Source: Candidatus Acidiferrum typicum
GTDB taxonomy: Bacteria; Acidobacteriota; Terriglobia; Acidiferrales; UBA7541
DNA: 64,000 bases
NCBI GenBank assembly: GCA_025463055.1
Contig: JAOAPV010000005.1
Span: forward strand, 1-64,000
Direction of reading: 5' to 3'
The notes below the pieces were generated by a model. It was not told where the DNA came from, did no database searches, and was given only the letters and a program-made list of their open reading frames with translations. Below, piece after piece: positions 1,033 to 34,790 of this stretch. Each line of letters opens with the position of its first letter. Positions within the stretch are counted from its first letter, which is position 1. The position numbers and the translations under genes were made by a program.

Positions 1033-1503
1033 TTAGGTCGCCCAACCCAATCGCAAGCTTATTCTGAAATTTACCCCCCGGTTGCCCAATTCTTCTTTGG
1101 CCTTGGACTTTCCGGCGTCCCCTCCGAAAAATGTTCCCCCGCCCAGCAGCGCTTCCAGCGCATCCAGCAAATCCCGCGCCGCATGTGATTTCAGCACAAA
1201 CCCGCGCGCTCCCGCTTCTTGCACTGTGGTGGCCAAGTTCTTCGATTCGTGCATGGTGAACACCAGCACCGCCGCCCGCAAGTTCAGTTTCGTAATCTCC
1301 CGAGTGGCCTCGATCCCGCTCATCTCCGGCATCGTAATGTCCATAATGATTACGTCTGGATCGAGAGCCGTCGCCTTCTCGATTGCGTCCTTCCCGTTTA
1401 CCGCTTCACCGCAAATTTCCCACTGTGGCCGCGCGCGCAAAATCGTTCGGATACCCTGGCGCACGACTTCATGGTCATCGACTATCAAAATCTTAGAACC
1501 CAT
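1033..1503 (-). CDS. Stand-alone response regulator receiver protein (no output domain)
   Basis: This 156-residue protein is a single receiver (REC) domain of the NarL/FixJ type. Seen: the acidic pair DD at residues 9-10, the phosphoacceptor D55 in IIMDITMP, the conserved T/S region FTMHES and the lysine in FVLKSH. The C-terminus ends about 30 residues after the domain, so the LuxR-type helix-turn-helix that usually follows is absent. Such CheY-like proteins act by protein contact or as phosphorelay intermediates. It resembles the receiver fused to the hybrid kinase at 28530-30209, including the GEAV and TFF motifs. No kinase is adjacent, so its partner is unknown. Confidence 0.85.
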   Translation of the reverse strand: MGSKILIVDDHEVVRQGIRTILRARPQWEICGEAVNGKDAIEKATALDPDVIIMDITMPEMSGIEATREITKLNLRAAVLVFTMHESKNLATTVQEAGARGFVLKSHAARDLLDALEALLGGGTFFGGDAGKSKAKEELGNRGVNFRISLRLGWAT

Positions 1504-5054: not shown

Positions 5055-6968
5055 ATGAGCTTCCTCGACCTCCTCATCGGCAAGCCCCTCGCGAATACCG
5101 AAGAACGCGCCGAGCAAATCGGCCCCATACAGGGCATCCCCATCTTCGGCCTGGACGCGCTGAGTTCCGCCGCATACGGACCCGAGGCGGCGCTCACTCT
5201 GCTTATTCCTCTCGGCCTTCTCGGCTTGCACTACATCATTCCGATCAGCGCCGCGATCATCGCGCTGCTTTTGATCGTTTATTTTTCCTATCGCCAGACC
5301 ATTGCTGCGTATCCGGGCGGCGGCGGTTCGTACACGGTGGCTCGCTACAATCTGGGCGCGCGTCCAAGTCTTCTGGCAGCCGCGGCTTTAATAACGGATT
5401 ACATTCTTACCGCCGCCGTGGGCATCTCGGCGGGCGTCGGCGCACTGATCTCCGCCGTTCCCTCTTTGCAGCCGCATACGTTGTCGCTCTGCCTTGGCAT
5501 CCTCGTCGTCGTCACCATTGTGAATCTGCGTGGCGTGCGCGAAGCGGGCCTCGTCTTCATGCTACCGACCTATCTTTTCGTCGGCACGCTGCTCATCATC
5601 ATCGCCGGTGGGTTGATTCGCACTTTAATAAGCGGCGGACACCCCGCGCCCGTAACACCCCTGCCGCCTCCGCCGCCAGTGACCGAAGCCGTCACGTACT
5701 GGCTGCTCCTGAAAGTCTTTTCCAGCGGCTGCACCGCACTCACCGGTGTGGAAGCGGTTAGCAATGGAGTGAAAGCCTTTCGCGAGCCCGCCGTCAAGAA
5801 CGCGCAACGCACGCTCACCATCATCATCTTTTTGCTTGCCATGCTTCTTGCCGGGATTTCGTATCTCGTCAAGGCCTTCGGCATCGTCGCCACGGAACCC
5901 GGTAAACCCGGCTACCAAAGCATCCTATCGATGTTGACTTCCGCTGTCTTCGGAAAAGGTTTCTTTTACTACGTAACAATCGCTTCGATCCTGCTCGTGC
6001 TTTCGCTTTCGGCCAACACCGCCTTCGCGGACTTTCCACGCCTTTGTCGCGCCATCGCTCAGAACAACTATCTCCCTCACGCCTTCCGCTTTCGAGGACG
6101 ACGCCTCGTATATTCTTACGGGATCCTGACCCTCGCGATCCTGACCGCTCTGTTGTTGATTGCGTTTCGCGGCATCACGGACAGACTCATTCCGCTCTAC
6201 GCCGTCGGTGCCTTCCTCGCATTCACGCTCTCGCAGGCCGGCATGGTCGTTCACTGGTACAAGAAACGCGGCCCGCATTGGCGGAAAAGTGCTTTTGTGA
6301 ACGGCCTCGGCGCCTTTGTCACCGGCATCACCGTTTGCGTCGTGCTGGTTGCCAAATTCGTGGAAGGCGCCTGGATCACATTACTTTTCATCCCCATGCT
6401 GGTCATGTTTTTTGGCTTCGTTCGCCGCCACTATCACTACGTCCGAGTGCAGACTTTATGCAAAGAGCGCGTGCAGCCGGCAAATCCAGGGGCGCCTCCT
6501 CTCGCCGTGGTCCCCATCGACCGCTGGAGCCGCATCGCTAAACAGGCAATCGAATTTGCCACTCGACTCACACCGGAAATCATTGCGGTTCACGTCGATA
6601 CAGGCGAGCATTCCGAGCTCTTGCGGGCAACGTGGGAACGCTGGGTCGAAGCAGGCTTTACCGAATCGGGGCGGCCGACACCTGAACTATTGATGCTGCC
6701 TTCGCCGTACCGATTTATCATACTGCCCATTCTTCAGTACGTTTTGGACTTGTCCGAAAAGCACCCTCAGCGGCGCATCGTGGTCGTCATCCCCGAACTC
6801 GTAGAAGGCCGCTGGTATGAATATTTTCTGCACAACCAGCGCGGCCGCCTCTTGGAATGGTCCCTGCAGGTCCGTGGCAACGAGCGCATCTTCACAGTCA
6901 GCGCACCCTACTACCTCGGCGAACACCCCGGCTCTGGCCACGAACCAAAGCTGTCGAAGCGCGTTTAA
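5055..6968 (+). CDS. KimA-like APC/KUP-superfamily permease (potassium or amino acid uptake)
   Basis: The product has 637 residues with about 12 hydrophobic spans in the first 455 and a soluble C-terminal domain (about 460-637) resembling universal-stress-type sensor modules. Motifs match Bacillus subtilis KimA (YdaO): LIGKPL near residue 7, GLDALSSAAYGPEAAL, SYRQTIAAYPGGGGSY, DYILTAAVGISAG and SSGCTALTGVEAVSNG. KimA is a high-affinity proton-coupled K+ importer inhibited by c-di-AMP; related permeases carry amino acids, so the substrate is inferred. The 222-base leader shows no ydaO-type c-di-AMP riboswitch that I can recognise. The ribosome site is poor: GGAGGG is about 30 bases upstream. 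Confidence 0.88.
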   Translation: MSFLDLLIGKPLANTEERAEQIGPIQGIPIFGLDALSSAAYGPEAALTLLIPLGLLGLHYIIPISAAIIALLLIVYFSYRQTIAAYPGGGGSYTVARYNLGARPSLLAAAALITDYILTAAVGISAGVGALISAVPSLQPHTLSLCLGILVVVTIVNLRGVREAGLVFMLPTYLFVGTLLIIIAGGLIRTLISGGHPAPVTPLPPPPPVTEAVTYWLLLKVFSSGCTALTGVEAVSNGVKAFREPAVKNAQRTLTIIIFLLAMLLAGISYLVKAFGIVATEPGKPGYQSILSMLTSAVFGKGFFYYVTIASILLVLSLSANTAFADFPRLCRAIAQNNYLPHAFRFRGRRLVYSYGILTLAILTALLLIAFRGITDRLIPLYAVGAFLAFTLSQAGMVVHWYKKRGPHWRKSAFVNGLGAFVTGITVCVVLVAKFVEGAWITLLFIPMLVMFFGFVRRHYHYVRVQTLCKERVQPANPGAPPLAVVPIDRWSRIAKQAIEFATRLTPEIIAVHVDTGEHSELLRATWERWVEAGFTESGRPTPELLMLPSPYRFIILPILQYVLDLSEKHPQRRIVVVIPELVEGRWYEYFLHNQRGRLLEWSLQVRGNERIFTVSAPYYLGEHPGSGHEPKLSKRV

Positions 6969-7149
6969 GCGCCAAACACAATTCTGCTTGGAAAGTACCG
7001 CCAACCTTAAGGCGAAAGAATTCACTTGCCAGTTGCGGCCTATCGGACCGTCGAGGGTGTTCGGAGGTCGGCCTCCGTTTCCGCAGCAGCGGAAGTACGG
7101 CGGCAGTACTGACAGGAAACCCGCTTTGGCCGGGCAACGATTCTATAAA

Positions 7150-7218
7150 GGGGACAGATAACAGCTCGTAAATATTGTTAGCATCCGCTGCGGTTTAGGC
7201 TCCGCTTTAACTGTCCCC
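7150..7218. repeat. 8-bp inverted repeat GGGGACAG / CTGTCCCC
   Basis: GGGGACAG at 7150-7157 and CTGTCCCC at 7211-7218 are exact reverse complements 53 bases apart. They lie in the 290-base gap between the permease and the ice-binding-like gene. The arms share CTGTCCC with the direct repeats at 2472 and 2665. This could be a miniature inverted-repeat or REP-type element; nothing coding is inside. Confidence 0.35.
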
Positions 7219-7262
7219 TCCCGCACTGTCAGCGACGAATGACGGAGAAAACGAGCTGTGAA

Positions 7263-8399
7263 ATGAAAAAACTTATCTTGGTTATTTGCATGGTGTGCAT
7301 GGGCAGTCTCTTCAGCATGAGCAGCATGGCTTGGTTTGGCTCGCCGCCGCCGCTGGGTTCCGCGCAATGCTTTACAGTTCTGGGGGCGTCAACGGTGACG
7401 AATACGGGCCCGACGGTCGTCACCGGATCTGTGGGTGTGAGCCCCGGAACCGCGATTACCGGCTTTCCTCCGGGAAAAGTGGTCGGAGGAACGACCCACG
7501 CGAGTGATGCGACCGCCAACGCGGCGCAGGCCGATGCGCATGCGGCATACGCTAATTTAGCAGCGCAACCTTGCGCGACTAACTTGACCGGGAAAGTTCT
7601 GGGCACAACGGCCGGCGCGGTTACACTCTCGCCTGGCGTCTATTGTTTTAACTCTTCGGCGCAATTGACCGGAACACTTACGCTCAACGGCAGCGGTGTT
7701 TACATTTTCAAGACAGGCAGCACGCTTATCACGGCGAGCAATTCCTCTGTCGTCCTGACTAACGGAGCGACGGCAGCAAATGTGTTCTGGCAAATTGGCA
7801 GCTCTGCAACGCTGGGCACAAACACCGTTTTTGTAGGAAGCATTCTCGCCCTCATCAGCGACACGGTCACCACTGGCGCCAGTGTTAACGGTCGAGTGTT
7901 TGCGCTGACGGGCGCTGTGACGATGGACAGTAACGCTATCACGAATGCCGCGCCTTGCGCCGGTAGTGGTGGTGGCGGCAGTGGTGGCGGTGGTGGTGGT
8001 CAACAGTGTAAGGACTTTACGACCGGGCGTGGATCCTTCATTGGGCCATCCGGCAGCAAGGCGAAGTTCGAGCTTGAAGCTGGGTTCAAGAGCGGCGAAG
8101 ACAAAAACGGCTCGCCGCACGGCGACGTGACTTACAGTGACGACGGCTTTGAATGCCTACTTAGGATGAAGAGCACAAGCGTCACGGCTTATCTTGAGAA
8201 GGGACCGAATTCGCGGCGCATCCAAGGCACTGCCGAAATTAACGGGCACGAAGGCACATACCAACTGGATGTGAGCGACGATGAATCAGGGTCAGACAGC
8301 TTTGCTATACGCTTGTCAAACGGCTACAGCGCCTCGGGTCACCTGAAAAGCGGGCAGATCGAGATCGATAAGCGCTGCCAAAATAGCAATGACCATTAG
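7263..8399 (+). CDS. Ice-binding-like (DUF3494) secreted protein with C-terminal extra domain
   Basis: The product has 378 residues. A signal peptide (MKKLILVICMVCMGSLFSMSSMA) is followed by a DUF3494/ice-binding-like beta-helix, about residues 25-235: GASTVTNTGPTVVTGSVGVS, AHAAYANLAAQP, PGVYCFNSSAQLTGTLTLNG and VFVGSILA. A Gly-rich linker (about 235-250, mostly GGSGGGG) then leads to an all-beta domain resembling post-COAP-1 modules (TGRGSFIGPSGSKAKFELE to the end). Known members bind ice or act as adhesins; here a surface or secreted role is inferred and ice binding is not shown. An upstream in-frame ATG at 7239 is possible, but the signal peptide starts at 7263. Confidence 0.87.
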   Translation: MKKLILVICMVCMGSLFSMSSMAWFGSPPPLGSAQCFTVLGASTVTNTGPTVVTGSVGVSPGTAITGFPPGKVVGGTTHASDATANAAQADAHAAYANLAAQPCATNLTGKVLGTTAGAVTLSPGVYCFNSSAQLTGTLTLNGSGVYIFKTGSTLITASNSSVVLTNGATAANVFWQIGSSATLGTNTVFVGSILALISDTVTTGASVNGRVFALTGAVTMDSNAITNAAPCAGSGGGGSGGGGGGQQCKDFTTGRGSFIGPSGSKAKFELEAGFKSGEDKNGSPHGDVTYSDDGFECLLRMKSTSVTAYLEKGPNSRRIQGTAEINGHEGTYQLDVSDDESGSDSFAIRLSNGYSASGHLKSGQIEIDKRCQNSNDH

Positions 8400-8572
8400 C
8401 CGGGTCGAATAAGTCATCTGCGAGGCACGAAAAAGGGAGGGCGCATCGAGCGTTAGGCTTTTGCGCTCTCTCTAACTGACCCGCCCGAAGGTTTTATTCT
8501 TCGAGTTCAATCTGGTCTGAAAATAGTTCTTCTCGTTGTGAAAATCTGTGCGCGAGTGCGCAAGAATTGAAG

Positions 8573-24048: not shown

Positions 24049-24800
24049 TCAGACCAGACGAATATTGTGTTCGATAGTCTTGATGACCGAGTCCATGCGG
24101 CCTGACAGCACCTGCTTGGCGAGACTCAGGGTGTAGCTCTCTGCGGTGTGAAAGGGCACGTGCGATGGCAGTGAAAGCGCAAATGGATCAACGACGGCAT
24201 CAACAACAACGGGCCCATTCTTGTGCGCCAGCGCCGCAGCGAGCGAATCCTTCACATCTCCGGGCTCCTCGAGCCGAATGCCTTTCGCGCCCATCGCCTC
24301 CCCCACTTTCGCAAAATTAGGATTCTTGAAATCGACGCCAAACGGCACCAACCCGCCTCTCGCTGCTCGATGTTGACGAAGTCGAGCGATTCATTGTTTA
24401 GAATGATTTGAACGACGGGCACCTAGAGGCAGGCGGTATCGAAAAATTTGTACGGGTTGAGCTCTTCGAGCGCAGCCGTGTCGATCAGCTTTGTTTCCAC
24501 GTCCCCCGCGATCGCAATGATTGGCGCGCCTTCCTTCCTCGCGTCCATCAGCCCGTTGAATAGGTGTGTGACTCCCGGGCCCGCAGTGCCGCACACGACG
24601 ACCGGTCTGCCCGTGAAATACGCCTCGGCAACTGCCGCGAAGACGCCGTATTCTTCATGGCGCGCATGGACGAATTCGATCTTTTCATTGCGGTGAAGCG
24701 CATCAATTACGGGATTCAGCGCGTCTCCAATCCCATAGCACCGTTCCACGCCGGCCTTCTCTAGCATTTCCCACATCACATCGGCAACGTTTCGCGCCAT
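24049..24800 (-). pseudogene. Pyruvate-oxidase-type TPP enzyme, large internal deletion plus frameshift
   Basis: The 5' part (24800 down to 24423) encodes a normal N-terminus of the PoxB/acetolactate-synthase family: YGIGDALNPVIDALHRNE, FVHARHEEYGVFAAVAEA and GTAGPGVTHLFNGLMDA, ending at a stop after YKFFDTACL. Immediately after, the DNA reads VPVVQIILNNESLDFVNIEQ, which belongs close to the C-terminus of the same family. Then a one-base frameshift leads into VPFGVDFKNPNFAKVGEAM and the C-terminal end at 24049. Some 280 central residues are missing. A ribosome site (GGAGGTG) remains before the ATG. The enzyme cannot be active. Confidence 0.85.
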
Positions 24801-26115: not shown

Positions 26116-27843
26116 ATGAAGCGGCTGGATAAATCGCCCACGGGTATCGTGGGCTTCGACGAAGTGACAAATGGTGGAGTGCCCAAGGGGCGTCCCACTA
26201 TCGTGTGCGGCGGTCCCGGTTGCGGGAAAACGATGTTTGCGCTGGAATTTCTGGTGCGCGGAGCGACGGACTTTAATGAACCTGGCGTGCTGATGACCTT
26301 CGAGGAGACTTCGGAGGAGATGAGCAAGAACGTGGCGTCGCTGGGATTCGATTTACAGAAACTGGCGGCCAAAAAGAAATTAGTGCTTGAGTATGTACGC
26401 ATCGAGCCCTCGGAAATACAAGAGACGGGTGAATATGATTTGGAGGGATTGTTCATCCGGATGCAGCACGCGGTGAAGTCCGTTGGCGCGAAACGCGTGG
26501 TGCTGGATACGTTGGAGGCCATTTTTTCCGGCTTCTCGAACACGGGGATGCTGCGCGCGGAGATTCGACGGCTGTTTCGGTGGCTGAAGGATCACGGGTT
26601 GACAACGGTGGTGACGGCGGAGAAGGGCGAAGGGACGCTGACGCGGTATGGCTTGGAAGAATACGTCTCCGATTGCGTGATTTTTCTCGACCACCGGGTA
26701 ACAGATCAGATTTCGACGCGGCGGATGCGGGTGGTGAAATACCGGGGGTCTTCTCACGTTGCGGACGAGGTCCCGTTCCTAATCGATGAGCGCGGTTTCT
26801 CCGTGCTGCCTAGCTCTTCCATGAAATTGAATCACGAGGTTTCGAGCGAGCGGATTTCGTCGGGCGTCAAAGATTTGGACGAAATGCTGGAGGGGAAGGG
26901 ATTCTACCGGGGATCTTCGATCCTGATTTCGGGGACGGCGGGCACAGGAAAGTCCAGCATGGCAGCCCATTTTGCGCAGGAGACCTGCCGGAATGGCGAA
27001 CGATGTTTGTACATTGCGCTGGAAGAGTCTCCGGCGCAAGCGATGCGCAACATGCGGTCTATCGGCGTCGATCTGGAAAAGCACGTGAGAAAGGGTTTAA
27101 TGCGGTTTGAAGCGTGGAGGCCAACGCAAAGCGGTTTGGAAATGCACTTGCTCCAAATTCATAAACTGGTGGAGCAGCACAAGCCATCGACGGTGATAAT
27201 CGATCCACTGACGAGTTTAATGACGGGCGGCAGGGATCAACTGCACTCCATGCTGATGCGGCTAATCGATTACCTGAAGATGCAGCAGATCACGGGCTTT
27301 TTTACGGCGCTGACGACCGGGCGAAACAAGGAAATCGAGGAGACCGACGTGGGCATCTCTTCGCTGATCGACACATGGATTTTCGCGCGGGATGTGGAGC
27401 TAAACGGCGAGAGGAATCGATGCCTGCATGTGCTGAAGTCACGTGGAATGGCGAATTCGAATCAGATACGCGAGTTTGTAATGTCCAAGGAAGGGATACA
27501 TCTGCTCCCAGTATACGTGGGTAACGGTACGATGCTGACCGGCTCGGCGAGGATCTCGCAGGAGGCACGCGAGAGGGCGGAGAACCTGCAACGTCAGCAA
27601 ACGGCGGAGGAGCAGCAGCGCGTCTTGAGTGGCAAACGGAAGGCACTCGAGGCGCAGATCGCGGCGTTGCGATTGGAATATGCACAGGAAGAAACGCGAG
27701 CGACGCTGGTGAAACAGCAGGACGCGCGGAGGGAACGCGAGCTGTCTGAAGACATGCTGCAAATGGAGAGTTTTCGAAGCGGAGCGCGCCGGGGAAAAAT
27801 AGGAGGCAGAAACGGGAAAGTGGAGGTTGAGCATGGGAGCTAG
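26116..27843 (+). CDS. kaiC: KaiC-like double-domain RecA-type ATPase/kinase
   Basis: The product has 575 residues with two KaiC domains in tandem. CI: P-loop GGPGCGKT (32-39), Walker-B-adjacent acidic pair E63-E64 in [24 protein letters not shown]-loop GTAGTGKS (273-280), E303-E304 in YIALEESP. The segment GISSLIDTW (413-421) aligns with the Synechococcus autophosphorylation segment HISTITDT, so S415-S416 stand where Ser431-Thr432 do. The C-terminus (about 490-545) is a predicted coiled coil rich in E/Q/R, not the short KaiA-binding tail of cyanobacterial KaiC. It heads a kaiC-kaiB-kaiB-kinase operon; no kaiA is seen. Confidence 0.93.
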
Positions 27844-28171
27844 GACGGGCGTAAAGTCGAAAAAGCCGAGTGCAAATGGCAATGGGCGGTTCTTAGAGCT
27901 GCGACTCTACGTGGCGGGGCAGTCGCCAAAATCACTTGTGGCTCTGGCGAACCTGAAGAAGTTTTGCGCAGAGCACTTGGACGGGCAATACGAGTTGCAA
28001 GTAATCGACCTGGTGAAGACACCGCAATTGGCGCAGAACGACCAAATCCTGGCGATTCCGACTCTTGTGCGGAAATTGCCCGTGCCAATTCGGAAGATTA
28101 TCGGCGATCTGTCGGACACCACCCGCGTGCTGGTAGGACTGGATCTAAGGGACAAAGCGGGTGCAGAGTGA
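27833..28171 (+). CDS. kaiB: KaiB-family protein, copy 1
   Basis: The product has 112 residues. After a basic 18-residue N-terminus it has the KaiB thioredoxin-like core: [57 protein letters not shown] and RVLVGLDL. This is close to cyanobacterial KaiB across its length. KaiB binds the KaiC CI ring after fold switching and recruits output kinases. The ATG at 27833 follows GGAGG and overlaps the kaiC stop by 11 bases. It is followed by a second, divergent kaiB. Confidence 0.93.
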
Positions 28172-28518
28172 AGCGGACCAAAGACGCAGCGGGCAATAGC
28201 GGCAAGGAATCCGCGAAGAACCATAATGGCAAAGAATCCGGAAGGAAGAAGTATCTTCTGCGACTGTATGTGACGGGCCAGACTCCCCGCTCCGTAAAGT
28301 CCGTAGAAAATCTCAAACGCTTTTGCGAACAACACCTCAAGGGCCAATACGATATGGAAGTAATTGACATTTATCAGCAGCCGGCCTTGGCTTCTGAAAA
28401 TCAAATCATCGCGGCGCCGACGCTGATCAAGAGCTTGCCATTGCCGCTGCGGCGGCTGGTGGGGGACTTTTCGAATGCAGATCGGGTGTTGGTAGGCCTG
28501 GATCTGAAAATTGCTTAG
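28168..28518 (+). CDS. kaiB: KaiB-family protein, copy 2
   Basis: The product has 116 residues from a GTG start that overlaps the first kaiB stop by four bases (GTGA). A Lys/Asn/Gly-rich N-terminus of about 28 residues precedes the KaiB core: [57 protein letters not shown] and RVLVGLDL. It is clearly a duplicate of the preceding gene but has diverged (for example [11 protein letters not shown] against [11 protein letters not shown]), so the two may have different partners. An in-frame extension to 27964 lies within the first kaiB and is not used. Confidence 0.92.
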
Positions 28519-28529
28519 GGGTGGGAGCA

Positions 28530-30209
28530 GTGAATAAGCTAAAGAGAACTAGTTCTTCAACTGCGAACGAGGAGTTGAGGGCGCGAGTGCAGGAGCTCGA
28601 GGAAACGCTGCGTGCCATCCGCATGGGCGAGGTGGATGCGGTGCTAGTGTCTGGCGCGCAAGGGGATCAGGTGTTTACCTTGCAGGGCGCGGAACATCCG
28701 TACCGGCTGCTGGTGGAGACTATTGATGAAGGCGCGGCCACGCTTTCCGATGATGGCACGGTGCTGTATTCGAACAAGAGCTTCGCGGCGTTTTTCGGAG
28801 TGCCGCTCGAGAAATTCATCGGAGCGCCGCTGCACAATTTCGTTACCGGGAATGACGCCGAATTTTTGAAAACGCTGATTCTGGGAGCCAGGCTGGCCAG
28901 CACGCGCGGCGAAATCCGGCTACAGAGAAAGCACGGGAAACCCCGGACCATCCGCTTAACGCTGAGCCCCAACCACGAACTGGGCCTGGAAGCGATTTGC
29001 GCGGTGGCTACGGAGCTTACGGAGATTGTGGACGCCAACGAGGCACTGCGGGTAACGGAGACGTCGCTGCGGCAATTATCCGCGCGGCTGTTGCAGCTGC
29101 AGGACGAAGAGCGCCGGCGGATCGCGCGCGACCTACACGACGTGACAGGACAGAAGATAGCGGTGCTATCCATGTCGCTGGACCGTTTGGCGAGGCTGAC
29201 GGAGCAGCGCAAACCGGAAGCCAAGGAGTCCGTCAAGGAGAGCCGGGAAATTGTCGGCCAAATTGGCGAGGAAATCCGGACGCTGTCTTACCTTTTACAT
29301 CCACCGTTGCTGGATGAGTGCGGGTTGGCGTCGGCCGTGCATTGGTACGCGGAGGGTTTCGAGAAGCGCAGCGGCATCAAGCTCGAAGTAAGCATCGGGG
29401 ACGACATCCCCCGCCTTCCCATCGATGCGGAAACGACGCTGTTTCGCGTGGTGCAGGAAAGCTTGACGAACGTGCATCGGTACTCCGGTAGTTCGTCGGC
29501 AAAGATCAAGATCTCGAAGGACGCGAAAGAAGTGCGGCTCGAAATTATTGATTACGGCCGCGGGAACAAATCCGGAACGGCGAGGGCAGGGCTGGACGGC
29601 CCGGCGCCGCTTGGAGTGGGCATTCCCGGAATGCGCGAGCGCCTGCACCAATTGGGCGGCGAACTGACCGTTGATTTTGCGACCACCGGGACGCGTGTAA
29701 CGGCGACGCTGCCGGTCAAGAAGGCGGCACAAGAGGATTCTGAAGAAAACATCGACCAAACATCGCTGACTTTTGCGATTCGTTCCGCCGAGGATGCGCG
29801 CCGACGGATTCTGATTGCGGACGATCACGAATTGATGCGGCGCGGGCTGCGGGGACTGCTGGAAAGTCATGATGAATGGGCGGTGTGCGGCGAGGCAGTC
29901 GAAGGAACGGAAGCGGTGCGAAAGAGCACGGACCTTAAACCAGATTTGGTGATAATGGACGTGAATCTGCCGGGGCTTAGCGGGATTGAAGCGGCGCTGC
30001 AAATTCGGCGGGAACGCGAAGCGGCGAAGGTATTGTTCTTCACCGTGCATGATTCCGACGAAGTGATACGCGAGATTGTGGAAGCTGGGGCGTCGGGGTA
30101 TGTGGCGAAGTCGCGAGCGAGTCAGGACTTGGTCGATGCAGTGCGCCTTGTGTTGAGCGGCAAGACGTTTTTCCCGAATCTGGTGGCAGCAGCGGCCGGG
30201 CGGAGATAG
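28530..30209 (+). CDS. Hybrid sensor histidine kinase (PAS-HisKA_3-HATPase-receiver)
   Basis: The product has 559 residues from GTG 28530 (AGGGG upstream; GTG 28521 is an alternative). Domains: a short helix (15-32), a PAS domain (about 55-165, DEGAATLSDDGTVLYSNKSF), the NarX-type dimerisation helix with EERRRIARDLHDVTGQ (phospho-acceptor H203), a HATPase with N-box ESLTNVHRYS and G-box GVGIPGMRERL, and a C-terminal receiver (about 426-550) with DDH, D477 in VIMDVNLPG and VAKSRAS. There is no transmembrane segment, so it is cytoplasmic. Following kaiC-kaiB-kaiB by 11 bases, it is the likely output kinase, analogous to SasA, but with its own receiver and no DNA-binding domain. Confidence 0.93.
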   Translation: MNKLKRTSSSTANEELRARVQELEETLRAIRMGEVDAVLVSGAQGDQVFTLQGAEHPYRLLVETIDEGAATLSDDGTVLYSNKSFAAFFGVPLEKFIGAPLHNFVTGNDAEFLKTLILGARLASTRGEIRLQRKHGKPRTIRLTLSPNHELGLEAICAVATELTEIVDANEALRVTETSLRQLSARLLQLQDEERRRIARDLHDVTGQKIAVLSMSLDRLARLTEQRKPEAKESVKESREIVGQIGEEIRTLSYLLHPPLLDECGLASAVHWYAEGFEKRSGIKLEVSIGDDIPRLPIDAETTLFRVVQESLTNVHRYSGSSSAKIKISKDAKEVRLEIIDYGRGNKSGTARAGLDGPAPLGVGIPGMRERLHQLGGELTVDFATTGTRVTATLPVKKAAQEDSEENIDQTSLTFAIRSAEDARRRILIADDHELMRRGLRGLLESHDEWAVCGEAVEGTEAVRKSTDLKPDLVIMDVNLPGLSGIEAALQIRREREAAKVLFFTVHDSDEVIREIVEAGASGYVAKSRASQDLVDAVRLVLSGKTFFPNLVAAAAGRR

Positions 30210-30300: not shown

Positions 30301-32589
30301 TCAGCGAGAGAGAGTTTCGCTCGACTCGATCCGGTCGGGTGTGTCAATGCGGATATCGGTAAGGTCGGATAACAGGTTGGCAGCCCAACGATAGACGTTG
30401 TGTTCGCGAACAGAGCTACGCATGTGTTGCATGCGGGAAGCTTGCTCGTCGGACGGCATGTTGAGCGCACGATGGATAGAGCCGGCCAGCTGCTGGACGT
30501 CATAGGGGTTGACGAGCAGAGCGTCGGTCAGCTCCAGAGCCGCACCTGCGAACGTGCTGAGGATCAGGACGCCGAGATTGTCTTCACGAGAGGATACGAA
30601 CTCCTTGGCGACGAGATTCATTCCGTCGTGCAGTGAAGTAACCATACATAGCGACGCGGCGTGATAGAAACGCGCGATTTCCTCGTGCGAATGATGCCGT
30701 TGTAGAAAGAGGATGGGCTTCCAGTGGCCGGCCTGGAAGCGGGCGTTGATGCGCTCGGCGTCGGCCGCCACGTCTGCGAGCAGATTCTGATAGCGCTCGA
30801 TATTGGTGCGGCTGGGGGCGCCAATCTGGATAAAAGTGAAGCGGCGTTGATAGGACGGATAGAGTTCGAAAAAGAGTTCGATGGCGCGGAAGCGCTCGAG
30901 AATGCCTTTGGTGTAATCGACGCGATCGACGCCGACCCCGATAAGTGTCGCGCTGATGCCTAGCTCATTACAAAGCGCGGCGCCCTCTTCCTTCGTGCTG
31001 CGAAGCGGCTTGATCGAATGGCCGTTTTCCTGAAGAGCAACGCTTATGGGGTAAGGGCGTACGCGAGTGACGTGGCCCTGGCGGTTCACGGAGAAGCGGT
31101 CCCATTCCGTGAGGGCTTCGACGGCGCGATCGACCGTGGAAAGAAAATTGTTGCAATGCGACTGAATATGAAAGCCGATGAGATCGGCGCCGAGCAGTCC
31201 GTCGATCAGTTCGCGCTGCCAGGGGCAGATGCCGAAGACTTCGGGATTGGGCCAGGGAATGTGCCAGAAGATCGCGACGCGAGCGTCCGGGCGCGCTTCC
31301 TTGATCATGCGGGGAAGTAATGCGAAATGATAATCCTGGACCAGAACTATGGGTGACTCGGTCCCTTCCATCTCCGCAATCGCTGCATCAGCGAAGCGGC
31401 GATTTACTTCCTGGTAGGCGATCCAGTCCTCAGGACGGAAGATCGGGCGCGTGTGCGCGATGTGGCAGAGCGGCCAAATGCCTTCATTGGCGAAACCTTC
31501 GTAGTAGCCCTTCTCTTCTTCGGCGCTGAGCCATACGCGGCGCAGCGTGTAACTGGGATGGTCGGGAGGAACGCGGAGATGATCCTTGGCGTCGACGACT
31601 TCGCGGTCGGCGTTGCCGGAACCGTGCGCGATCCACGTGCCGTCAGTGGCGAGGAGCACGGGCTCGAGAGCGGTGACTAAGCCGCTGGCGGGAACGATCA
31701 CTTGGACGTTGCCATTGCTGCCGTTGCTGTGGACGTGCATGTACGGCTCGCGGTTGGCGATTACGAAAAGAGGCTTGTTTTGCAATTTGTTGCTGAGGCT
31801 GACGCGCAGGCGTTCGGCGGTCCATAATGAGACGTTAGAATCGCGGAGACGGGCCTCTTCCTCGGCCGTGGCGCGAGCTGCGTTGAGATCGCGCGCAAGA
31901 TGCGTAACTTCGTGGTGGAGCTGATCGAAGAGCTCGCCCTCGGGAAGCGAAGGCGGAGCATGCGATTGGCCGGTGCGCAAAGTGCGCAGCCACTTGGCGG
32001 TGCGGGTGAGCGGACCGGTAAGAGTCCAGCGCACGAGTACCAGCGCGAGACCGGCGATGAACAAGGTTTGCACCAGCGCGTTGACAAGTGAATCGCGCAA
32101 AGTGTGGGCAACCTGGCGGTCGATATAAGTCACGTCGTGGACGAGCGCAAGTGTGCCAACCATTTGGCCGTTGCGGTGAAGCGGCAAAGCGTAAACGTGA
32201 ATAGGCGTGTCGTTGACGCGCAGGAACTCGCCGTAACCAATGTTGCGATCGGCAGCATAAGCGGCAGCGGCGGGCCGAAGTTGGAAGAGCGAAGCGAGGC
32301 CGGAGGTCATTGCAAGGGCGATGCCGTTGGCGTTGTAGATGGCGACGCCTTTCAGGTGCTCGCGCTGGCCGAATCGATCGACGAGGCGTTGCAGGCTTTT
32401 GTCCGGGAGCTGCTTATCAAATTGCGGCTCGACAGTTTCTTGCAGGCTTTCCGCGAGAATTTCCGCGCGGCGAGAGATGTCATTGCGCAAAATGCGGCGT
32501 TCGGTACGGACCTGATAAGCGGCGAAAAGCAGAGACACTACAACCACGCTAATAATGAGAGGCAAAATGAGTTTCAGGGTCGTGCGCAT
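30301..32589 (-). CDS. otsA: Membrane-anchored sensor fused to trehalose-6-phosphate synthase
   Basis: The product has 762 residues. The N-terminus is built like a sensor: TM1 (LILPLIISVVVVSLLFAAY, about 6-26), a periplasmic domain of about 140 residues, TM2 (ALVQTLFIAGLALVLV, about 175-190) and a HAMP-like helical region (190-255). A full GT20 domain follows (about 275-750): LVQDYHFALLPRMI, FWHIPWPNPEVFGICPW, VGVDRVDYTKGILERF and SLHDGMNLVAKEFVSSRED, with the sugar-nucleotide-binding residues of OtsA. It should make trehalose-6-phosphate from UDP-glucose and glucose-6-phosphate at the inner membrane. No otsB phosphatase is adjacent. GGGGAAG precedes the chosen ATG. Confidence 0.9.
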   Translation of the reverse strand: MRTTLKLILPLIISVVVVSLLFAAYQVRTERRILRNDISRRAEILAESLQETVEPQFDKQLPDKSLQRLVDRFGQREHLKGVAIYNANGIALAMTSGLASLFQLRPAAAAYAADRNIGYGEFLRVNDTPIHVYALPLHRNGQMVGTLALVHDVTYIDRQVAHTLRDSLVNALVQTLFIAGLALVLVRWTLTGPLTRTAKWLRTLRTGQSHAPPSLPEGELFDQLHHEVTHLARDLNAARATAEEEARLRDSNVSLWTAERLRVSLSNKLQNKPLFVIANREPYMHVHSNGSNGNVQVIVPASGLVTALEPVLLATDGTWIAHGSGNADREVVDAKDHLRVPPDHPSYTLRRVWLSAEEEKGYYEGFANEGIWPLCHIAHTRPIFRPEDWIAYQEVNRRFADAAIAEMEGTESPIVLVQDYHFALLPRMIKEARPDARVAIFWHIPWPNPEVFGICPWQRELIDGLLGADLIGFHIQSHCNNFLSTVDRAVEALTEWDRFSVNRQGHVTRVRPYPISVALQENGHSIKPLRSTKEEGAALCNELGISATLIGVGVDRVDYTKGILERFRAIELFFELYPSYQRRFTFIQIGAPSRTNIERYQNLLADVAADAERINARFQAGHWKPILFLQRHHSHEEIARFYHAASLCMVTSLHDGMNLVAKEFVSSREDNLGVLILSTFAGAALELTDALLVNPYDVQQLAGSIHRALNMPSDEQASRMQHMRSSVREHNVYRWAANLLSDLTDIRIDTPDRIESSETLSR

Positions 32590-32669
32590 TGCAAACTTCC
32601 CCTTGGGCAAGAGCGAAGATTTGTTTCGGATTCGTGAGGGTGCCGAATCCGCTGGGCGAATGGCGCCCG

Positions 32670-34025: not shown

Positions 34026-34790
34026 TCAGACGAGAAACCCCTGCGTGCGATAGAGCTGCACCATTTCCAGGCGATCTTCGGCGCCGATTTTGTGCTTCAT
34101 GCGATAGAGGTGGTTTTTGACTGTCTGTTCGGAAAGCGAGAAATGATTCGCGATTTCCTTGTTAGTCAGTCCTTGCGCGATCAAAGGAATAAGCTGTAGT
34201 TCGCGACGGCTGAGACCCATGCGGCGCTTGCTGCTCGTGCAGGGAAGGCCGGTCGCTTCTGATTCAAAATAGCGGAACAAAGCAGCGCAAAGAGCCCCGG
34301 GACAGACAGCCTCTCCGGCGGACACGGCTTGCACGCCTTGCAGAACCTCACTCGCGGAAGCGTCGCGTAGCAAATAACCACTGATGCCCGCGCGAACGCA
34401 CTTAAGGAATTCGCGCTCGTCCTTAGCCATGCCAATGAGCAGTATGCGGACGGCAGGAGCTGCGGTTCGGATCTCCTGAATGGCCGATAAATCTTCCTCG
34501 AGACTTCCGCGAGAGTTAAGAAGAAGTACGTTTGGGCGGGCATCGAGCACCGCATCAGTATGAAAAAACGCAGCCGAGTCCGTAGCAATTACGTCGATGC
34601 CGATACCCTTGGTCAGAACGCGAGCCAAAGCTTCGCGTAACAGACGATTCTCCGCGGCGATGAAGACGCGAATTTTCTCTCCGGTTGTCTTGCGAGTGTC
34701 GGGGCGCGCGGGTTTGGAGGCTCTTCGCCGGGAATCCGGCGCCGAACCTTTTGGGCGGGCGGTTTCCTTAACTGCTGGGATGTCCGTCAT
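34026..34790 (-). CDS. LuxR/NarL-type regulator with degenerate receiver domain
   Basis: The product has 254 residues. A basic, probably disordered N-terminus (1-38) precedes a receiver-like domain (about 40-160). The acidic pair is AEN (46-48) instead of DD, and the phosphoacceptor is N92 in VLLLNSRGS instead of Asp, so normal phosphorylation is not expected. The C-terminus is a GerE/LuxR helix-turn-helix: LSRRELQLIPLIAQGLTNKE, IANHFSLSEQTVKNHLYRMK. It would be a phosphorylation-independent or ligand-driven DNA-binding regulator. Its position near the kai/otsA region makes it a candidate for that circuit, but this is inference. Confidence 0.9.
   Translation of the reverse strand: MTDIPAVKETARPKGSAPDSRRRASKPARPDTRKTTGEKIRVFIAAENRLLREALARVLTKGIGIDVIATDSAAFFHTDAVLDARPNVLLLNSRGSLEEDLSAIQEIRTAAPAVRILLIGMAKDEREFLKCVRAGISGYLLRDASASEVLQGVQAVSAGEAVCPGALCAALFRYFESEATGLPCTSSKRRMGLSRRELQLIPLIAQGLTNKEIANHFSLSEQTVKNHLYRMKHKIGAEDRLEMVQLYRTQGFLV

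Follow-up and report, generated by a model that had tools for sequence, protein, structure and literature searches.

How a KaiBC timer that lacks KaiA passes its state on to the cell is left unexplained in the parts of the Kai literature drawn on here. The question bears on four consecutive genes in a 64,000-nucleotide stretch of DNA from Candidatus Acidiferrum typicum (assembly GCA_025463055.1, contig JAOAPV010000005.1, positions 1 to 64,000; the whole stretch is hereafter called the window), namely kaiC, two kaiB genes (kaiB1 and kaiB2) and a hybrid histidine kinase gene (Table 1). Judged by its sequences, the locus is a Rhodobacter sphaeroides-type KaiBC system in a two-KaiB form, and such a system is of a known kind. 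The new and testable parts are two: a kai-linked segment at the N-terminus of the kinase, and a probable split of the KaiBs into two fold types. The segment is the most telling feature of the locus and was missed by the sequence-only reading, an earlier annotation that had described the four genes as a clock-like or KaiC signalling module. The module itself, of the KaiA-less kind, is there, with KaiC, two KaiBs and the kinase all present.

The kinases encoded behind these KaiBs have about 45 N-terminal residues in common, LRxRLxEAEETLRAIRxGEVDALVV and then FTL before the PAS domain. Among these residues the AIxxGxVDA core is conserved more strongly than any other part, the helix-like first half included. 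When 26 members of the segment were scanned against Pfam and NCBIfam, only weak, scattered matches were obtained (best E value, 0.0021 in Pfam and 0.025 in NCBIfam), none above a curated cut-off, and its identification as LysR_substrate or as a coiled coil was rejected for this reason. A search of the PDB with the segment gave no chain below an E value of 0.08. The string GEVDALVV was not found in the open-licence papers searched, a set that does not cover most subscription journals, and the open-licence literature, judged mostly by titles and the starts of abstracts, yielded no account of either the segment or the division into KaiB1 and KaiB2. The RtaNt domain belongs to kaiC loci without kaiB (PMC3164672).

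To see where the segment occurs, an alignment of 26 rows (A1) was searched in whole genomes; counts of strong matches leave out weak ones (E value, 1e-6 to 1e-3). The genome that contains the window has a single match (E value, 2.7e-27). Among 61 relatives, the segment was present in seven, one copy each, and KaiB in eight, which were the same seven and G040, whose KaiB groups with cyanobacterial KaiBs. The 200 genomes of the Ramlibacter order gave eight strong and two weak segment matches, and KaiB was found in 11 genomes, including all eight with a strong match and one with a weak match. The 198 genomes of the Ferruginibacter order gave six strong matches and one weak match, with KaiB above the cut-off in the same six (four KaiB matches under the Pfam cut-off were counted as no KaiB). 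Strong segments were thus present in 7/8, 8/11 and 6/6 KaiB genomes of the three samples and in 0/53, 0/189 and 0/192 of the other genomes (Fisher p, 1.8e-8, 3.0e-12 and 1.3e-11, shared ancestry not being allowed for). Pooled, and counting strong matches only, these are 21 of 25 KaiB genomes against 0 of 434 others, or 16 of 20 KaiB genomes when the five that had donated rows to A1 (G000, G011, G035, G070 and G073) are set aside. Misses are possible in the large samples, in which only part of the first-look candidates was scored in many genomes.

Further samples gave a similar distribution. The genomes of 34 of the 38 named KaiC loci described below were searched, and all 34 contained the segment, in a single copy in 33; the match in G080 was weak and cut by a contig end. 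In the Argonema order, 15 of 148 genomes contained 16 copies, all behind a KaiB2-type or near-KaiB2 KaiB, one of them at 1 kb; KaiB itself was not searched there. Among 396 Acidobacteriota genomes, 20 contained 22 strong copies, of which 20 were behind a kaiB, one was beside a divergent kaiC and one (L207) had no kai gene in 14 kb. This orphan copy (L207/L213, genome G696, contig C220) lies in an open frame of 1776 codons, with neither KaiB nor KaiC in 14 kb; a further copy in the same genome belongs to a kai locus. Of the seven weak matches in Acidobacteriota, three belonged to kai loci, one adjoined a partial KaiB match and three had no kai gene within about 1.5 kb to either side. The weak match of G238 in the Ramlibacter order was in a kai locus and that of G096 was not; the weak match in the Ferruginibacter order (G502) had no KaiB in 1.8 kb.

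Plasmid records served as an independent set. Of 72,556 records, 16 contained KaiC by tblastn at an E value of 1e-60, 13 at 52-58% identity (the R. sphaeroides type) and three at 37-39%. A search with the first 65 residues of the kinase at an E value of 0.01 detected 13 plasmid records, and these were identical to the 13 with an R. sphaeroides-type kaiC. Nine of them are from Cereibacter sphaeroides, each at only 2e-3, and the set amounts to about five independent cases. In R. sphaeroides 2.4.1, kaiC, kaiB and a gene for a kinase annotated as HWE are consecutive; the kinase scores 51.8 bits against the segment model, and the KaiB (WP_002725098.1) is the one named in PMC10076222. In the Pararhizobium record, kaiC is followed by two kaiB genes and by a kinase-type gene that carries the segment under the annotation 'response regulator'; the record of Rhizobium BG4 carries kaiC, kaiB and an HWE kinase gene. 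Since this mark of about 45 residues on the partner is also found in the R. sphaeroides operon, for which KaiC and KaiB structures have been solved, the question of output is directly testable with known proteins. With the segment, the signalling partners of KaiBC timers can also be sought by sequence, cyclic di-GMP (c-di-GMP) enzymes included.

The fetched loci yielded 90 distinct strong segments in 89 loci (L054 and L076 are the same). KaiBs on the same strand were assigned to the two subfamilies described below with a margin of 8 bits. KaiB1 followed by KaiB2 was found at 63 segments, KaiB1 followed by an ambiguous KaiB at three, KaiB2 only at 10, KaiB1 only at seven, one ambiguous KaiB at three and none at three. 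As to the last three, L046 is beside a divergent kaiC and L207 is the orphan; L099 is close to a contig end in the genome that also contains L016, whose contig is a different one and breaks off after kaiB2. Because KaiC is the partner common to nearly all segment loci, KaiC or the KaiB-KaiC complex appears a likelier docking site than KaiB2 alone. KaiB2 as an obligate partner was rejected, because seven segment loci, that of R. sphaeroides included, have a KaiB1-type KaiB only. The C-terminal tail of KaiC is an unlikely docking site, because the KaiCs of L037 and L039, with 25-27 amino acids (aa) after the RGM motif, still have a segment downstream. Fusions of KaiB to the kinase, which would be direct proof, were absent from the loci fetched at that stage.

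What follows the segment varies. A PAS domain comes next in the window kinase and in ten scanned relatives, and the C-terminal domains of ten proteins were HisKA in four (L009, L010, L019 and L031), HisKA_3 in five (L012, L014, L020, L040 and L043) and GGDEF-EAL in one (L015). Such exchange of domains behind a constant N-terminal part fits a docking tag on an output, and we read the segment as a putative tag that ties a KaiBC timer to its signalling partner. The receiver that the sequence-only reading had used to set the window kinase apart from SasA is present, and a Pfam scan found no match in the kinase to KaiB, the N-terminal domain type of SasA; as a distinguishing feature the receiver is only a detail, however, since five of ten scanned relatives have one and five have none. 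The protein of L015 (Phormidium, 6090-8402), a PAS-GGDEF-EAL protein with the same segment in the place of the kinase, hints that a second Kai system in this cyanobacterium may have c-di-GMP as an output.

The two KaiBs of the operon had been described as diverged, and the tree separates them as subfamilies. In a tree of 82 rows (85 columns, 20 open forks), 33/33 first-position and 33/33 second-position KaiBs were split by one branch with a support of 96/95. R. sphaeroides KaiB was on the KaiB1 side and four cyanobacterial KaiBs were on the KaiB2 side; single KaiBs were scattered on both sides, each label needing four changes against about 26 in shuffles. By this topology KaiB1 and KaiB2 are old paralogues, and either the duplication would predate the operons of these phyla or the KaiB pair would have travelled as a block. 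The order was invariant in the 63 loci with KaiB2 after KaiB1, and both keep their subfamily marks; mean column identity is 47% for KaiB2 and 57% for KaiB1. In L050 (G035) and L051 (G034), kaiB1 is present as remnants, whereas kaiB2 and the kinase segment are kept; the segment match of G034 contains a stop codon.

AlphaFold2 was run on the subfamily alignments (33 and 32 sequences), with one model per protein. The KaiB1 model had the order E-H-E-h-h-H-E and a mean predicted local distance difference test score (pLDDT) of 58.1. Its 17 best Foldseek matches were free KaiB crystal chains (4kso, 2qke, 1r5p, 1wwj and 1vgl), which we take to be ground-state KaiB structures. The KaiB2 model had the order E-H-E-H-E-E-H and a mean pLDDT of 83.8, with 86/116 residues at 90 or above. 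Its best matches were KaiC-bound R. sphaeroides KaiB, Legionella KaiB and fold-switched Thermosynechococcus elongatus KaiB, followed by KaiB-TV4 and the N-domain of SasA (6x61). KaiB1 is thus predicted in the ground-state fold with low confidence and KaiB2 in the fold-switched thioredoxin-like fold with high confidence. The identity of KaiB2 to the fold-switched Legionella KaiB (4kun) and KaiB-TV4 (8ubh; PMC10808063) is 33-38%, and its state is a predicted one. Sorting of KaiBs by state from AlphaFold2 models built on close-relative alignments has a precedent, in which one variant and one designed flip were tested by nuclear magnetic resonance (PMC10808063). The fold-flip residues given there were ruled out as an explanation for KaiB2, which has Leu, Val and Gly at the three positions. 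An operon that naturally pairs KaiBs of unlike predicted fold would provide a clean setting in which to ask what timing gains from fold switching.

The assignment to the R. sphaeroides type, which is marked by hourglass kinetics and by phosphorylation that the ATP:ADP ratio drives, comes from KaiC. When PDB chains were searched with phmmer, R. sphaeroides KaiC was the best solved relative (Table 1); the next different KaiC scored 399.8 bits, and the alignment to 8dba extends into the tail, to residue 546 of the window KaiC. The KaiC of L032, an Acidobacteriaceae assembly, has 77% identity across residues 1-342. The P-loops, acidic pairs and Ser-Ser pair named in the sequence-only reading were confirmed: both P-loop lysines, Glu-Glu 63-64 and 303-304, and Ser415-Ser416 are present, and the two serines align with Ser413-Ser414, the phosphosites of R. 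sphaeroides KaiC (PMC10076222). In an alignment of the window KaiC with 35 relatives scoring above 400 bits, from the 38 loci, the Ser-Ser pair was kept in 34/34 rows with letters at the phosphosite, both Glu-Glu pairs in 36/36 and the P-loop lysine in 35/35 (CI) and 36/36 (CII). The tail beyond RGM measured 25 to 130 aa in the 34 rows that reach past this motif.

The published R. sphaeroides KaiBC hourglass (KaiC 8dba/8fwi, KaiB 8fwj; PMC10076222) has in common with the window system the KaiC type, the Ser-Ser pair, the long C-terminal tail, a KaiB1-type KaiB, the order kaiC-kaiB-kinase and the kinase segment; the window has in addition a second KaiB, and its kinase is of the HisKA_3 class with a receiver, whereas that of R. 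sphaeroides is an HWE kinase. Earlier papers on purple bacteria have noted kinases that adjoin kaiBC (PMC5520375, PMC10931921). The cyanobacterial KaiABC-SasA-RpaA system has the KaiC and KaiB families in common with the window, where, in contrast, the neighbourhood lacks kaiA, the phosphosites are Ser-Ser instead of the Ser-Thr of the KaiABC oscillator, and the HisKA_3 kinase carries no KaiB-like domain.

The gene order is widespread. Among 38 named KaiC loci, chosen by likeness to the window KaiC and therefore giving no frequency for all KaiCs, five end within kaiC and 30 of the other 33 have two KaiBs after kaiC. A single KaiB follows kaiC in L022, where a contig end cuts the locus, L038 and L040. 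By their labels, the 30 two-KaiB loci span about 11 phyla. The genome search for a conserved kaiC-kaiB-kaiB order that had been proposed from the sequence thus showed that the order recurs, and the rarity that the proposal implied was not borne out. Moreover, clusters of kaiC and kaiB followed by a histidine kinase gene or a GGDEF/EAL gene were already described outside cyanobacteria in 2011 (PMC3164672). The 'orange group' clusters of that paper have the same general arrangement, with ST or SS sites, and its account of them, as excerpted, mentions neither paired KaiBs nor the kinase segment.

From the genes and residues, the paralogy, the predicted folds and the tight genomic link between the segment and the kai genes, we infer the following mechanism. 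KaiC would autophosphorylate on Ser415/Ser416 according to the ATP supply. KaiB1, as a fold-switching KaiB, would bind phosphorylated KaiC and favour dephosphorylation, and KaiB2, held in the thioredoxin-like fold, would bind KaiC as a further ligand without first having to switch fold slowly. The kinase would dock on the Kai complex via its N-terminal segment, the state of KaiC would set kinase activity, and the signal would be carried on by the receiver of the kinase or by a partner regulator. In our judgement there is a slightly better than even chance that the locus encodes a KaiBC system without KaiA, of the R. sphaeroides hourglass type, which acts as a timer or as a sensor of energy state and is coupled to a signalling protein of its own. 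The hourglass idea of the sequence-only reading gains from the closeness of the KaiC to one with published hourglass behaviour (PMC10076222). We tentatively extend the proposal, in a form that we consider more likely to fail than to hold: KaiBC timers in many phyla may signal via an unnamed portable docking segment on varied effectors (three histidine kinase classes and GGDEF-EAL), and in most operons the role of KaiB may be split, with delay introduced by a fold-switching KaiB1 and KaiC read immediately by a KaiB2 locked in its active fold.

The system could instead read energy charge or stress at once and keep no time, with KaiB2 as a redundant or decaying copy. The hosts in about 11 phyla, many of which are not phototrophic by name, are in line with this, as are the loci without KaiB2 (L040 and L048), the genomes that keep only remnants of KaiB1 (G034 and G035) and the lower conservation of KaiB2; set against the fixed order of the pair with its subfamily marks and the hourglass behaviour of R. 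sphaeroides KaiBC (PMC10076222), these points leave it a somewhat unlikely, though serious, possibility. The kinase might also be an input device, with the PAS domain as its sensor of redox, oxygen or a ligand and the segment as its means of resetting KaiC, the output of KaiC lying elsewhere. The constant presence of PAS behind the segment agrees with such a role, and the kinase adjoining R. sphaeroides kaiBC has been proposed to relay redox information to KaiBC (PMC5520375, PMC10931921), but the GGDEF-EAL protein in the same place and the swaps of C-terminal domains fit an output better. The latter are not decisive, and we regard the input role as unlikely. It is distinctly improbable that the segment is a mere dimerisation helix of a kinase lineage that moves with the kai genes as a mobile block and binds no Kai protein: its first half, LRxRLxEAEETL, resembles an amphipathic helix, its weak library matches are coiled coils, and the operon is patchy among relatives (KaiB in 8/61), as expected of a mobile block, but the segment stayed while kinase classes and GGDEF-EAL were exchanged behind it, its conservation peaks in the core and not in the helix, and KaiB-less genomes in three large samples contained no strong copy.

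The reading of the locus as a KaiA-less timer with a docked partner and two kinds of KaiB has several points against it. One of the 22 strong Acidobacteriota copies, L207, is without a kai gene in 14 kb; L132, the second kai locus of G184, has a KaiC of the same type and a KaiB1-like KaiB but no segment, and its following gene resembles, by eye, a PAS/HD-GYP protein. Two KaiB genomes of the Ramlibacter order (G223 and G281) gave no segment match at an E value of 0.001, and one further KaiB genome gave a weak match only. The seven segment loci without KaiB2 mean that KaiB2 is not essential. The confidence of the KaiB1 model is low, KaiB2 lacks the residues that make R. sphaeroides KaiB flip (PMC10808063), AlphaFold2 gives no measure of an equilibrium, and one model per KaiB is weak evidence for one. 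A C-terminal coiled coil that joins two hexamers, as in the R. sphaeroides type, is suggested for the window KaiC only by homology, its tail aligning with the coil region as far as residue 546, and a simple heptad test on the tail was not significant (p, 0.43).

Table 1. Positions of the Kai genes and their features in the window.
Feature	Position	Strand	Evidence
kaiC, 575 aa, two ATPase domains, R. sphaeroides type	26116..27843	+	Pfam KaiC 3.2e-105 in two stretches; 8dba 648.9 bits
kaiB1, 112 aa, KaiB1 subfamily, predicted ground-state fold	27833..28171 (ATG 27833)	+	Pfam KaiB 3.3e-26, 91.3 bits; tree; AlphaFold2; Foldseek
kaiB2, 116 aa, KaiB2 subfamily, predicted fold-switched thioredoxin-like fold	28168..28518	+	Pfam KaiB 5.3e-25, 87.4 bits; tree; AlphaFold2; Foldseek
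Hybrid histidine kinase, 559 aa: segment, PAS, HisKA_3, HATPase_c, receiver	28530..30209	+	Pfam
Kai-linked N-terminal kinase segment, as matched up to PAS start	28548..28721	+	A1 alignment; genome search E 2.7e-27
Kinase receiver domain, residues 427-539	29808..30146	+	Pfam Response_reg 4.3e-26
Ser415-Ser416 codons, KaiC phosphosite pair	27358..27363	+	Alignment
KaiC C-terminal tail, 130 aa after RGM motif	27451..27840	+	phmmer alignment to R. sphaeroides KaiC

The layout agrees with the earlier description. The coordinates and the plus strand of the four genes hold, Pfam supports KaiC, two KaiBs and a PAS/HisKA_3/HATPase_c/Response_reg kinase, and both KaiB scores exceed the PF07689 cut-off of 27. 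The overlap of kaiC and kaiB1 is 11 bases, that of kaiB1 and kaiB2 is GTGA (28168-28171), and the gap from kaiB2 to the kinase is 11 bases when counted to the GTG at 28530; a second in-frame GTG for the kinase is at 28521. The gene overlaps suggest co-transcription of the four genes, and because the flanking genes on both sides are on the minus strand, the four form a stand-alone unit. A promoter and terminator scan gave no more matches than shuffled sequence did. The claim that kaiA is missing holds for the neighbouring genes scanned with Pfam, the whole genome not having been searched for it.

Contig C144, to which the window belongs, comes from a draft genome of 5.33 Mb (98.9% complete), and this genome contains four KaiB matches in total and one two-domain KaiC. 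Two of these KaiBs are lone and of a divergent type with the motif HTLRS (L003, 1498-1746, minus strand, contig C134; L004, 1486-1740, plus strand, contig C17), with no KaiC or kinase segment within the fetched DNA; the lone KaiB gene of L003 is preceded, on the same strand, by a gene for a single-domain receiver. The genes that flank the operon in the window were rejected as members of the system because they are not conserved beside other kai loci: with copies of the same locus excluded, seven flanking genes gave no match at an E value of 1e-15 beside other kai loci, except for a LuxR-type regulator once (L025). A LuxR-type regulator at 34026-34790 (minus strand) has a degenerate receiver (Pfam Response_reg, 24.2 bits against a cut-off of 30.2) with, by eye, Asn at the phospho-acceptor position. 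The gene at 30301-32610 (minus strand) encodes a trehalose-6-phosphate synthase-type protein (Glyco_transf_20), which is not conserved beside other kai loci and whose roughly 280 N-terminal residues, ahead of the enzyme domain, resemble a membrane sensor. By eye, two short frames at 24049-24351 and 24423-24800 (minus strand) look like the two ends of one gene for a thiamine-pyrophosphate enzyme of the pyruvate oxidase type, with the middle missing. At 1033-1503 (minus strand), the window encodes a 156-aa receiver-like protein without a DNA-binding part, similar in sequence to the receiver domain of the Kai kinase (phmmer, 2.6e-36).

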